A stretch of 64,000 nt of DNA from Olsenella sp. (GTDB lineage Bacteria; Actinomycetota; Coriobacteriia; Coriobacteriales; Atopobiaceae), in NCBI GenBank assembly GCA_022648325.1, contig JALCMG010000004.1, positions 1-64,000 of the forward strand. Direction: 5' to 3'. Of the stretch, positions 16,073 through 21,141 are shown in pieces (position 1 is the first letter of the stretch; every line of letters begins with the position of its first letter). The position numbers were made by a program, and so were the translations under genes. The notes beneath the pieces were generated by a model. It did not search any database. It worked only from the letters and a program-made list of their open reading frames with translations, and was not told the origin of the DNA.

Positions 16073-17140
16073 CTAGCGCTGCGGTGGAAGCGGTACCCCC
16101 AGGTGTTCGAATGCGGCAGGGGTTGCCTGACGTCCCTGCGGCGTACGCACGATAAGACCACGCTGCAATAGGTAGGGCTCGTATACGTCCTCAAGGGTAG
16201 ACGGATCCTCACCAACAGCCGAGGCAATGGTGGTAAGCCCCACGGGACGGCCCCTGAAGGTACCCGTGAGCGCGGTGAGAATCTTCTTGTCCATCCAGTC
16301 GAGGCCCATCTCGTCGATCTCGAAGAACGAGAGTGCCTCGGCAGCGACCTCCCACGTGATGGCGCCTCCGGCCCTCACTTGGGCGTAGTCACGCACACGC
16401 TTGAGCAGGCGGTTGGCAAGACGAGGCGTGCCACGTGAGCGCGAGGCAATCTCGGCAGCGCCCTGGTCGTCAATCTCTACCCCAAGGATTTTTGCGGAGC
16501 GCTGGACGATACGTTTAAGCTCGTCAACGGTGTAGTAGTCCAAGCGATACGAGATGCCAAATCGATCACGCAAGGGGCCGGTGAGAAGACCTGTACGGGT
16601 TGTAGCACCAATGAGCGTGAAGTGGGGGACATCAAGCCTGATGGAGCGCGCTGCCGGTCCCTTTCCTATGACGATATCGAGGAAGAAGTCCTCCATAGCA
16701 GGATAGAGGACCTCCTCGACCTGGTGGTTGAGACGGTGTATCTCGTCAACAAAGAGGACGTCACCCTCCTCGAGGTTAGTGAGAATGGCGGCGAGGTCTC
16801 CCGTGCGCGCAATGACTGGCCCCGAGGTTGTGCGAAGACGGGCGCCCATCTCATTGGCAATGACGTTTGCAAGCGTGGTCTTTCCTAAACCCGGGGGGCC
16901 GGAGAAGAGTACGTGGTCGAGGGTCTCGTGGCGATCCTTCGCAGCGGCAATGAGCACGCGGAGGTTGTCGCGCACTCGCTCCTGGCCACAGTATTCGTCA
17001 AGCGTAGTGGGACGAAGGCTGCGGTCAACCTCAAGGTCATCCGCCGTGAGTTCTCCCGTCACAGGACGAGGCGCACCATGAGTGCGCCCAGACCCCGGAA
17101 CGCCATCGAAGAGGTCCTCCTCTTGTGCCTCCCACGTCAC
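16073..17140 (-). CDS. ruvB: Holliday junction branch-migration helicase RuvB
   Basis: AAA+ motor of 355 residues that drives branch migration of Holliday junctions together with RuvA. Walker A is GPPGLGKTT (81-89), Walker B is LFVDEIHRL with DEIH at 132-135, sensor 1 is in the IGATTRTG segment, and the C-terminal winged helix contains [12 protein letters not shown]. Length and order are standard for the family. It overlaps the ruvA stop by 4 bp (ATGA), so the two are translationally coupled. Confidence 0.98.
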
Positions 17141-17769
17141 AGGTTTCCTCCAAGTCTTCTCAGCGCAAACTGGATAGCCTTCTCGACGGTGACGGCACCA
17201 GCGTCCTCGTACCCGTCAAGGGCAAGCTGAGCCTCCTGCGGCGAGAACCCCATGGACAGGAGCGCGGCGGTTGCCTCCTCGGTGACAGACTGGGCGGCAT
17301 CGGGAACTTTGGCCTGGCGCGCTGCGGGTTCGCTCATACCCACAAGGCCGCGCAGCGTGGCGTCCTTGGCAAAGACATCCTGCAGCTCGACGAGGAGCCG
17401 TTGTGCCTTCCTCCTGCCAACACCCGGCACTTGCGCCATGCGCTCCTCGTCCTGGAGGGTAACGATGCTCGCAAGGGTTGCCGGAGAAAAGGTGGAGAGT
17501 ACCGCCAGCGCAAGCTTGGGGCCTACGCCTGAGACAGCAACGAGCTTATCGAACACCGCTCGTTCCTCTCGCGTGGCAAAGCCGTAGAGTTCCACGGCGT
17601 TTTCTTTCACGAGCATGCGCGTGAGCACGGTGACGCCGGCCTCCCCAACTGCGGGAAGCGATGCCGCGGTGGTTGCGGAGACCCCAAGCTCGTAGCCAAC
17701 GCCCCCGACGTCGATGACCACGTGGGTGGGAAGTACCTCCAAAAGGGTACCTGTGAGCTGCACGATCAT
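17137..17769 (-). CDS. ruvA: Holliday junction DNA-binding protein RuvA
   Basis: A 210-residue RuvA. An N-terminal OB fold is followed by two helix-hairpin-helix motifs ([12 protein letters not shown] and [16 protein letters not shown]) and a C-terminal domain that contacts RuvB. RuvA forms tetramers that hold the Holliday junction in square-planar form. It overlaps ruvC and ruvB by 4 bp each, giving a compact ruvC-ruvA-ruvB operon. Confidence 0.97.
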
Positions 17770-18419
17770 TGGGTATTCCTCCTGCTCTGCCGTACGTGGC
17801 CAAGCGGCGAGGCCTCGCGGCGTACGCTCGCAAGCCGCGCTGCGGTGGCCGCTGCGGTAACGCTACGCGCCGTTGCGGCATCAAGCTCCTCCTGCGCGCG
17901 CGCCTGCTCGAATACCTGAACCGCCGCACCCTCACGCGTGAGCCGTTGAGTTCTCGAGAGGTTGGCATGGCAGATGGCCGCAGCCAGCGCGTCTGCGCAG
18001 TGATCTGGGCGTGGGTCGTGGTCGAGGGCAAGGATGTTTCTCACCATAAAGATGACCTGGCGCTTGTCTGCAGATCCGGTGCCCACGACAGCCTGCTTGA
18101 TTTGCATGGGGGTGTACTCCCCCAGCTCGAGGCCTGCCTCCGCCGCAGCCACAAGAGCCGCGCCCCTCGCATGCGCCGTTGCAAGCGCCGACCGTGAGTT
18201 CTCACCAAAGAAGATCTTCTCTATGGCAAGTTGACTTGGAGCATAGGTTTGGATGGCTTTGGAGATGCCTTCGTAGATTTTGCCCAGGCGGCGATCGATG
18301 GACTCGGACGACGAGGTGGAGACGCAGCCGTATGCGCGAGCCCTGCAGACAGACCCGCGCGTCTCGACCACGCCCCAGCCTGTGTTTGCAAGGCCGGGAT
18401 CAACGCCCAGAATGATCAT
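17766..18419 (-). CDS. ruvC: Holliday junction resolvase RuvC with a C-terminal extension
   Basis: Endonuclease that resolves Holliday junctions by paired nicks. The RNase-H-like core shows D7 in ILGVDPGLANTG, E67 in LAIEKIFFG, and H140 and D143 in PDHCADALAAA; a histidine at the third metal position is also used by Thermus RuvC. The protein has 217 residues against about 160-190 for most homologues; the extra tail from about residue 160 is rich in Ala and Arg and has no known function. The ATG at 18419 places the first catalytic strand at the N terminus. A LexA-like box lies just upstream. Confidence 0.95.
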   Translation of the reverse strand: MIILGVDPGLANTGWGVVETRGSVCRARAYGCVSTSSSESIDRRLGKIYEGISKAIQTYAPSQLAIEKIFFGENSRSALATAHARGAALVAAAEAGLELGEYTPMQIKQAVVGTGSADKRQVIFMVRNILALDHDPRPDHCADALAAAICHANLSRTQRLTREGAAVQVFEQARAQEELDAATARSVTAAATAARLASVRREASPLGHVRQSRRNTQ

Positions 18420-18451
18420 GAGAAGCACCCCCTCTCCGCAGGACAATGGTT

Positions 18452-18465
18452 AGAACGTTCGTTCT
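18452..18465. promoter_or_regulatory. LexA (SOS) box upstream of ruvC
   Basis: AGAACGTTCGTTCT contains GAAC-N4-GTTC, the core of the Gram-positive/actinobacterial SOS box (CGAAC-N4-GTTCG) with one mismatch on each outer side. It sits 33-46 bp upstream of the ruvC start and next to a TAGAAT hexamer on the minus strand, so LexA binding would block the promoter. Confidence 0.75.
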
Positions 18466-18502: not shown

Positions 18503-20428
18503 CTAGTTCTCAGAGAAGGTCCTCCATATGGAACTGTCGCCGGGTGTCCCGCCCCGACCAGGTCGGCCGCCTTGGCCATGTCTGCCTGCGCGGCCCTCGG
18601 GCTGGTCGGCAGCAAGGCCTCCCGTAAGCGAGAAGTCTCGCAGGAGATTAAGCACGTCACGCATATCTCGCTCGCGGTCTTGAGGCCCCACTGGTGCGCT
18701 GGACTCTTCCCCATCCTGCTGTGCAGTGCCTACAGTGGGAGCCTCTGGCACGCCTCCCAAATCATGGACAGCAGAGGCGATGGCCTCGTCGAGGTCATCC
18801 CCAAGCGAGATGGTTCCTCCAATCCCCTCGCCTGCGCGCTCCGCCTTTGACCGTGCTCGATCGCGCCACGCCATGCCAAGCGGCCACGCAACGTCCTCGA
18901 GCGTGCGAGATGAGGCGACTATGACCGGGCCACAGGACATGCGCGCCGGCTCACACGAGGCGAGGCGGTCAAGTATGGCCGAGACCACCTGGGCGTGCCC
19001 GCCATCGTCCACGATGTCCGAGAGGGGGCGACCCCATTCGATGTGGCTCGCAAGCACGTAGTCGACGAAGTCTATGCGCGACTCTGGGGTGGGACCGCAC
19101 TCCTCGATGCCCGGAATGGCGGGGACCTCGAAGGCATGGCGAGAGGCGCGCGAGATGACGGGCGATATGGTGTTTCTCATGTGCACTAGCTCGATAACTG
19201 CATGCCGGTACACGTCACCCAGGGGTGCGACACCCGGGCGCGGCATCGAGCCAGGTGAGACCTCAAGGGCCAGCGCAGTCTTGTCGAGGTTCGAGAGCGG
19301 CATGGCACCTTCCTCGCGCGCCAATGCCACAAGGTGAGCCTGTGCAAGGTCTGCTGCCAGGGCATGGTCAGGTGAAAGCGCGGCCATGGGGAGCTCTCGG
19401 ACCGGCAACCTGAGGTTCTCGACGAGCCTGCGTGCAGAGACATCAAGATTGTCGTTGGCACCCATCACGAGCAGCGCATGGACGTTGGTGGGACCAAGGG
19501 CGTCGGTAGCCAAAGCGGCGACGGCACTGGAATCCAGCGTGCCATCCACCAGCACGGCAGCCTGGGAAAAGCCCATCTGAGGGAGGGACTCGGCAAGACC
19601 CTGCACCAGCACATTCCAGGCAACGAGCGGGCGGTCGTAGACCTCGGGGTCCAAGGGATGGTCGAGAGGGCCGCTAAGGTCTGGATCGATGTCTGCAATA
19701 AGGAGGTCCTCCTCGAACGAAGGAGACTGGGCGGCAAGCTCGCCCCACGGCGTGAGAACAAAGCTCGAGCCAGTGAACACCTGCGTTCCGTATGTACCGA
19801 GCGAGCCCACGCCGACGATCCAGGAACCCGTTGCCTCGGCATCGTCCATGAAGCGACCGTCGGAAACCGAGACGCCCATGGCAGATGATGGATCGTCCAT
19901 GGCAAACCCATAGCCATCGAGGTAGAGCACTGCGTCGACATCGAAATCATAGTCATCGAAGTCGTTGAGATCGTCGAAGGAGAAGGCGAGACCGAAGTGG
20001 ACGCCGCCCAGCTCGAAAACGGGCAGGCCTGGCGCTGGGCCATCCTCCTCAATGCTCCCCTTCGGATGCTTGTTCGCCTGTCCCGTGGCAGACGAACGCA
20101 GGAGTGCCGAGAGCTTGAGCGGGGTGAGCTCCCCGTCGTGAACGAGAATGGCCTCTGGCGCGGGGGCCCCGTCCGCGTCAGAGAGAACGGGCACGATGCA
20201 GGGGCATGGCACCTCTTCGGAAATCTTGACTAGCGCCTCAGCGAGGTCGAGAAGTAGCCCCTCTTGGCTGGGGGGGTCGACCGGCCAGACGCCCAGCAGG
20301 GCGGCCGCCGGAAACACGACGAGCTGAGCTCCCTCGCCCGCTGCCTTCTTCGCGAGCTCCACCATGCGATCAGCCGTGCGCTCGAGCTCGCCTGCCGTGG
20401 TCCTCATCTGAGCAACCGCGATCTTCAT
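18503..20428 (-). CDS. Degenerate glutamine-dependent NAD synthetase homologue (probable pseudoenzyme)
   Basis: A 641-residue protein with the layout of bacterial NadE: an N-terminal nitrilase-type amidase (1-270) and a C-terminal synthetase fold (285-520), plus a Gly/Arg-rich tail. The frame is intact, but the catalytic motifs are not. The nitrilase glutamate in FPE is alanine (FPAAALLG, A41), and the nucleophilic cysteine is replaced in GLAFSFDD (about S150). The synthetase P-loop SGGxDS reads DGTLDS, and the TGNKSE loop reads SNLDKTAL. The flanking AVAALATDALGP stretch and the later GDVYRHAVIELV stretch still align, so homology is clear. It is unlikely to make NAD; a regulatory or new role is possible. 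It lies between desulfoferrodoxin and ruvC with its own spacing on both sides. Confidence 0.85.
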   Translation of the reverse strand: MKIAVAQMRTTAGELERTADRMVELAKKAAGEGAQLVVFPAAALLGVWPVDPPSQEGLLLDLAEALVKISEEVPCPCIVPVLSDADGAPAPEAILVHDGELTPLKLSALLRSSATGQANKHPKGSIEEDGPAPGLPVFELGGVHFGLAFSFDDLNDFDDYDFDVDAVLYLDGYGFAMDDPSSAMGVSVSDGRFMDDAEATGSWIVGVGSLGTYGTQVFTGSSFVLTPWGELAAQSPSFEEDLLIADIDPDLSGPLDHPLDPEVYDRPLVAWNVLVQGLAESLPQMGFSQAAVLVDGTLDSSAVAALATDALGPTNVHALLVMGANDNLDVSARRLVENLRLPVRELPMAALSPDHALAADLAQAHLVALAREEGAMPLSNLDKTALALEVSPGSMPRPGVAPLGDVYRHAVIELVHMRNTISPVISRASRHAFEVPAIPGIEECGPTPESRIDFVDYVLASHIEWGRPLSDIVDDGGHAQVVSAILDRLASCEPARMSCGPVIVASSRTLEDVAWPLGMAWRDRARSKAERAGEGIGGTISLGDDLDEAIASAVHDLGGVPEAPTVGTAQQDGEESSAPVGPQDRERDMRDVLNLLRDFSLTGGLAADQPEGRAGRHGQGGRPGRGGTPGDSSIWRTFSEN

Positions 20429-20509: not shown

Positions 20510-20538
20510 GTGCCGCCCCGGCACTGCCGGGGCGGCAC
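20510..20538. terminator. 12-bp GC hairpin between desulfoferrodoxin and the NadE-like gene
   Basis: GTGCCGCCCCGG (20510-20521) pairs perfectly with CCGGGGCGGCAC (20527-20538) around a 5-nt loop. It lies 28 bp after the desulfoferrodoxin stop on the minus strand. The U-tract is weak, so termination is likely but not certain. Confidence 0.65.
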
Positions 20539-20566: not shown

Positions 20567-20947
20567 CTAGACCTCGGCCTTCCAGAGACCATGGAGGTTG
20601 CAGTAGGCGTAGACCGTTGCCTTGCCGCCCTCGCCAAGGTGGAAGCGAGCCTCGGGAGCGTCACCGGGCTTGAGGTAGCGGATGACGGTCTTGTCGCCGT
20701 CGGCAAAGAGCAGCCACTCGATGTAGTGCTCGGGAGTCATGGGGTGAGCAACGGAGCCGACGCGGGCAACGAGGCGATCGCCCTCGACGGTAAGGGCAGG
20801 AACGTGCTTCTCGACGGCGGCGTCGGTGGTGTTGGCAACGAGCTCCTCCATGGGCTCGCCGCAGCACACGGGCGTGGGTCCGCCATCAACGATCTTCACG
20901 ACAATGTTGCCGCAGTGCTTGCAGCGATAGATCTTGACGTCTGCCAT
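20567..20947 (-). CDS. dfx: Desulfoferrodoxin (superoxide reductase)
   Basis: A 126-residue two-iron superoxide reductase that reduces superoxide to peroxide without making oxygen, a common oxidative-stress defence in anaerobes. The N-terminal rubredoxin-like centre has C9, C12, C28 and C29 (CKHCGN and CCGEPM). The catalytic centre has EKH (46-48, with the loop lysine), H68, H74, C116 and H119 (CNLHGLW). I placed the start at the ATG at 20947 (GGAGAGG upstream), which gives the standard family length. The leader contains a small hairpin at 20968-20991. Confidence 0.97.
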   Translation of the reverse strand: MADVKIYRCKHCGNIVVKIVDGGPTPVCCGEPMEELVANTTDAAVEKHVPALTVEGDRLVARVGSVAHPMTPEHYIEWLLFADGDKTVIRYLKPGDAPEARFHLGEGGKATVYAYCNLHGLWKAEV

Positions 20948-21141
20948 GGGGCATCCTCTCCTATTCTGGCATCTCCCCGCAGGGCGATGCCACTGTCTGC
21001 GACCACACCCGCAGTCGCTGTCATGCGTATTCTCCCCCACCAAGTGATACTTCATGCACCCGGTAATTGCTATTTTTAAACCTACATATAAGCCACACCG
21101 GCACATGCGGGAATCGCCGGGTGTCTCCGCAAGGAGAATGC

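Follow-up and report, generated by a model that had tools for sequence, protein, structure and literature searches.

NadEps, a probable pseudoenzyme derived from NAD synthetase with an invariant C-terminal tip in Atopobiaceae and Coriobacteriaceae

The NadEps gene and its locus

The window analysed is a stretch of 64,000 nucleotides from Olsenella sp. (contig JALCMG010000004.1, positions 1 to 64,000), in which a nadE-derived pseudoenzyme gene, here termed NadEps, lies between dfx and ruvC. The features of the locus, by window position and strand, are:

20567..21106, minus strand: ORF with desulfoferrodoxin (dfx), the upstream neighbour by synteny; the listed start is probably too far upstream
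20510..20538, minus strand: terminator-like hairpin between dfx and NadEps
18503..20428, minus strand: NadEps, 641 aa (ORF, Pfam, curated-family score, phmmer, orthologues)
19664..20428, minus strand: N-terminal nitrilase-like (former glutaminase) domain, aa 1-255 (Pfam CN_hydrolase, AlphaFold model, PDB alignments)
18839..19663, minus strand: former NAD synthetase (N-type ATP pyrophosphatase) domain, aa 256-530 (Pfam NAD_synthase, structure alignments)
18527..18838, minus strand: variable linker, aa 531-634, mostly of low confidence, with one predicted helix at aa 582-602 (pLDDT, low conservation)
18506..18526, minus strand: extreme C-terminus, WRTFSEN, in which F638, S639 and N641 are invariant in Atopobiaceae (alignments)
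18453..18464, minus strand: LexA/SOS-type box, GAACN4GTTC, between NadEps and ruvC (57/57 orthologous gaps, Atopobiaceae and Coriobacteriaceae)
17766..18446, minus strand: ruvC, the downstream neighbour (ORF list, synteny)
17137..17769 and 16073..17140: ruvA and ruvB, respectively, following ruvC

The NadEps frame opens with ATG; it continues for 641 codons without disruption, as the first-pass annotation had reported for this position. That annotation had also read the product as a relative of two-domain NadE and had proposed a structural alignment as a check. Pfam domains CN_hydrolase (2.5e-14) and NAD_synthase (2.5e-7) both scored above their cut-offs, and a phmmer comparison with A. baumannii NadE (5kha) gave 5e-19 with residues 2-506 covered, which indicates that the kinship with NadE is not due to chance. 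The AlphaFold model (pLDDT 84, pTM 0.83) has the full-length two-domain NadE fold: the alignment of residues 1-525 with the structure of Streptomyces avermitilis NadE (3n05) spans 467 residues (Z 30.5, rmsd 3.3), and the former synthetase domain aligned to single-domain NadE structures with Z about 22-24. Sequence and structure comparisons thus agree on the likeness. In one C. aerofaciens record the NadEps orthologue is annotated 'hypothetical protein'.

NadEps lies upstream of ruvCAB in nearly all loci examined from Atopobiaceae (f1) and from Collinsella and allies (Coriobacteriaceae, f3), usually with dfx just before it; the dfx counterpart in C. aerofaciens is labelled 'desulfoferrodoxin family protein', and in some other species the gap between dfx and NadEps is 3-9 bp. 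In G394, NadEps and ruvC are on different contigs and dfx adjoins NadEps, and in G034 NadEps and ruvC have opposite orientation. The LexA-type box recurs in every one of the orthologous gaps (57/57), which makes a separate SOS promoter for ruvCAB probable, and an operon of NadEps with ruvCAB was judged unlikely given this box before ruvC. A PADLOC search for defence systems gave no match. The C. aerofaciens sequence L237 (NZ_OY725717.1) is labelled 'plasmid 6', yet at 0.9 Mb and carrying dnaE and ruvCAB it is probably chromosomal; it has an SNF2-related gene between dnaE and dfx (L237:4893-8357) that is absent from the window locus.

Active-site motifs and a second NadE

To locate the former catalytic positions, NadEps was aligned to eight outgroups from the class Coriobacteriia with intact sites. 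The segments identified are:

20297..20317, minus strand: VFPAAAL, former FPE motif, catalytic Glu replaced by Ala (A41)
20090..20116, minus strand: KLSALLRSS, in the alignment at the place of the former catalytic-Lys segment, without the Lys
19967..19993, minus strand: GLAFSFDDL, former VCED segment, without its nucleophilic Cys
19526..19552, minus strand: LVDGTLDSS, remodelled SGGxDS P-loop
19271..19297, minus strand: LSNLDKTAL, remodelled GNKSE motif

All three residues of the glutaminase Glu-Lys-Cys triad are replaced. FPE reads FPA and the VCED cysteine is replaced (by serine, in AFSFD), both of which changes had been proposed from the sequence. The replacement of the lysine segment is a further loss, beyond those named in the first-pass annotation: where the outgroups have YHKRRLPNYGVFDE, NadEps has a helix that is unrelated to it, together with a loop predicted to be disordered. 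In the synthetase domain, DGTLDS stands where the outgroups have SGGIDS, again as first read. The claim that TGNKSE is absent holds for the motif itself; the segment, however, has been remodelled (LDKTA) rather than deleted, and its lysine, K383, is invariant in the family. By this alignment, the residues that NadEps lacks are the catalytic ones of both active sites, and we infer that the activity of NadEps is absent.

Compared with the glutamine-dependent NAD+ synthetases of the PRK13981/NF010588 family (3n05, 5kha), NadEps is alike in domain order, full-length fold and vertical descent, but it lacks all glutaminase and synthetase motifs, scores 93.6 bits on the curated NF010588 model where 479 are required, and adds a linker and an FSxN tail.

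A search for a second, intact nadE, proposed along with the original reading, led to contig C18 of the same genome (G000:C18), which encodes a 655-aa NadE of PRK02628/NF002730 type with a score of 870 bits. Both of its active sites are present. It has two domains, as NadEps does, but belongs to another subfamily, and NadEps scores only 25 bits against that model; the gene is on another contig than NadEps, with no operon link. Among the listed Atopobiaceae and Coriobacteriaceae genomes with completeness of 90% or more, all but G072 have a PRK02628-type NadE that exceeds the cut-off of the family, and the catalytic motifs were intact in those sequences examined. As far as the motifs indicate, NAD synthesis in this genome is the task of the PRK02628-type NadE, not of NadEps.

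Conservation, order of decay and the C-terminal tip

Orthologues of NadEps were found by BLAST in 99 of 101 good Atopobiaceae genomes, and a profile search added that of G017, giving 100/101; they also occur in Collinsella and allies. Tractidigestivibacter scatoligenes SK9K4 is the closest named relative (90% identity). The remaining Atopobiaceae genome, G026, yielded no NadEps and likewise no RuvC, RuvB or DnaE. This genome is a single contig rated 99% complete, yet the stretch with these genes seems to be missing, so that it provides no evidence of real loss, which was rejected. The G017 orthologue (L230:3163-6399) is unusual: it has grown to 1078 aa through a long insert, acidic and of low complexity, and its identity is down to 22%; it still lies between dnaE and ruvC and ends NPFSIN.

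Within the genus, dN/dS of NadEps was 0.06-0.14, as found by a simple counting method with dS near saturation for several pairs, and that of RuvC and RuvA was 0.00-0.08. The two closest NadEps pairs (dS 0.12 and 0.19) gave 0.085 and 0.13, in agreement with the rest. The frame is open in nearly all orthologues, so neither the disrupted frame nor the neutral evolution of a pseudogene was found; instead, NadEps is homologous to an enzyme family without its catalytic motifs, intact, and under selection. Together with the second NadE and the near-universal orthologues, these data bear out the earlier proposal that the gene is a pseudoenzyme kept by selection for another role, for which complex formation, metabolite binding and NAD sensing had been named as examples.

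Comparison across the Coriobacteriia indicates the order in which the sites were lost. Both sites are intact in 8/8 class outgroups. In the Coriobacteriales families f2, f4 (G322 only) and f6-f9 the glutaminase is dead and the synthetase motifs are intact, and in every aligned Atopobiaceae and Coriobacteriaceae homologue of NadEps both sites are lost. The tree follows the same order, with the class outgroups first, then the grade of f2, f4 and f6-f9, and then a clade of f10, f1 and f3 (100/100), within which G394 branches before Atopobiaceae and Coriobacteriaceae. The NadE proteins of f2 and f6-f9 share with NadEps their clade and the loss of the Glu-Lys-Cys triad, but differ from it in their intact synthetase motifs and in having no FSxN tail.

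Two f10 genomes are informative here. G394 has intact synthetase motifs and the FSxN tail, and no other NadE, PRK02628 type included, was seen in it. G393 has a dead P-loop (AGDLDSS), the tail, and in addition a single-domain NadE that reads SGGKDS; two contigs each carry a part of its NadEps gene, and the tree, which took only the N-terminal part, places it beside f1 and f3 with moderate support (85/79). Because of this moderate support, the synthetase site may have been lost either once or twice. Since G394 combines intact motifs with the tail, the tail predates the loss of catalysis. A general rule by which a further NadE always entails loss of the synthetase site does not hold outside the tail clade: G322 and G198 are intact beside another NadE, which indicates that a second NadE does not always bring decay.

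The body of NadEps evolves fast, unlike its C-terminal tip. The F, S and N of the F-S-x-N-COOH end were invariant in 79/79 sequences, and the tip is kept in the hyperdivergent G017 protein as well as in G393 and G394. The corresponding codons vary synonymously (TTC/TTT, TCN/AGC, AAC/AAT) while the residues are fixed, so selection acts on the protein, and a nucleotide-level cause of the conserved end was rejected. An exact PFSEN-stop pattern was matched in 94 of 140 genomes of the Atopobiaceae family. No second PFSEN end occurred in the 140 genomes, the sole extra match reading TGG in place of a stop; a C-terminal tag common to other proteins was rejected accordingly. All FSxN ends found in ORFs of at least 150 codons within 1.67 Mb resemble NadEps by their last residues.

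Possible roles of NadEps

The reading that best accounts for these data is that NadEps is a former NAD synthetase kept as a non-catalytic, tail-dependent interaction protein, to which we assign a probability of about 0.6. It would descend vertically from an ancestral two-domain (PRK13981-type) NadE of Coriobacteriia, whose glutaminase site would have been lost in the Coriobacteriales ancestor, the protein going on as an ammonia-dependent NAD synthetase. In the lineage of f10, Coriobacteriaceae and Atopobiaceae, a flexible tail with F-S-x-N-COOH at its end would then have been added, bringing a second function. Once another NadE took over (PRK02628 type, or the single-domain NadE in G393), the synthetase site would have decayed, and NadEps would have been kept for the second function only, its folded, doubly dead body acting as a scaffold from which the FSxN tip, on a disordered linker, docks into a conserved putative partner. 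This full course, in which an active enzyme gained a tail-dependent job, lost both activities stepwise after its replacement and is now a core adaptor with a putative receptor reading F-S-x-N, is more tentative than the reading itself, and we place it somewhat below even odds.

Loss of catalytic motifs with conservation of fold under selection is characteristic of pseudoenzymes as a class (PMC5106787, PMC10211241). NadEps differs from the class in that both of its domains are dead and in its invariant C-terminal tip. No NadE pseudoenzyme was found in the literature searched; PMC3376133 treats domain gain and loss, and a term search of it yielded no double-dead form. The protein is near-universal in two major gut-bacterial families, comprising Collinsella and the relatives of Olsenella and Atopobium. 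Each of the stages through which it descended from an essential enzyme survives in living relatives, which makes the order of gain and loss directly testable, and the invariant tip provides a short handle for finding a partner.

NadEps might instead be a metabolite sensor, in which the remodelled synthetase pocket (DG[TS]L, DKT, P[LF]GDV) would take up a nucleotide or a ligand related to NAD, with no catalysis, and the tail would pass on the signal. Of the alternatives this survives best, but we consider it unlikely. Conservation extends to the rebuilt motifs of the pocket: across Atopobiaceae and Coriobacteriaceae, G296, K383, T384, P402 and D405 are near-invariant, with K383 and D405 found in all sequences and T384 in all but one. 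Ligand sensing would also explain the conserved body residues, which include G220, S222, E240, K383 and D405, as well as interaction does. However, K383, G296, P402 and D405 are equally conserved once active homologues join the alignment, and the role of K383 and D405 may therefore be structural. In addition, the aspartate of the P-loop 'LDS' is missing in most other genera, and the glutamate of NKSE is gone in nearly all genera. That the tail arose before catalysis was lost speaks for complex formation rather than sensing.

More doubtful is a role as regulatory or structural subunit of the active PRK02628-type NadE, in a hetero-oligomer. The two proteins occur together in nearly all Atopobiaceae and Coriobacteriaceae genomes, and the regulation of active relatives by pseudoenzymes is a known theme (PMC11266112). 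The proposal is weakened because G394 has NadEps, with its tail, and no other NadE that could be seen; neither this genome nor G393, which also has NadEps and the tail, is among the listed PRK02628 positives, and the separate contig of the active gene offers no operon link.

The strong selection and the conserved K, T and D of the old pocket might also reflect a different reaction catalysed in the rebuilt site, but the acidic P-loop and NKSE residues are not conserved and the P-loop region differs between genera, and we regard a new enzyme as improbable. Membership of NadEps in a RuvCAB recombination/SOS module, to which its adjacent and codirectional position points, is less probable still in view of the separate SOS promoter predicted for ruvCAB and the arrangements in G394 and G034. 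Finally, NadEps might still work as a NAD synthase through residues that have moved elsewhere, or be a pseudogene in decay. The retained overall fold would fit this reading, but it is largely refuted by the loss of all catalytic motifs, the intact replacement NadE, dN/dS well below 1 and a frame open in nearly all orthologues.

The favoured role as an interaction protein would be exerted through the tail. AlphaFold left the tail disordered in models of both the window protein and a Collinsella protein, with pLDDT below 50 at residues 558-581 and 602-641 of the former. In neither case was the tail predicted to dock into the body of the protein itself, and its docking into a partner is something that we infer. 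Alternatively, the tip might serve as a signal for stability or processing. In family f9 (L199-L203), the glutaminase-dead, synthetase-intact proteins end [FIY]L-x-N, similar to the FSxN tip; the two ends are possibly related, though the tree does not resolve f9 as sister of the tail clade.
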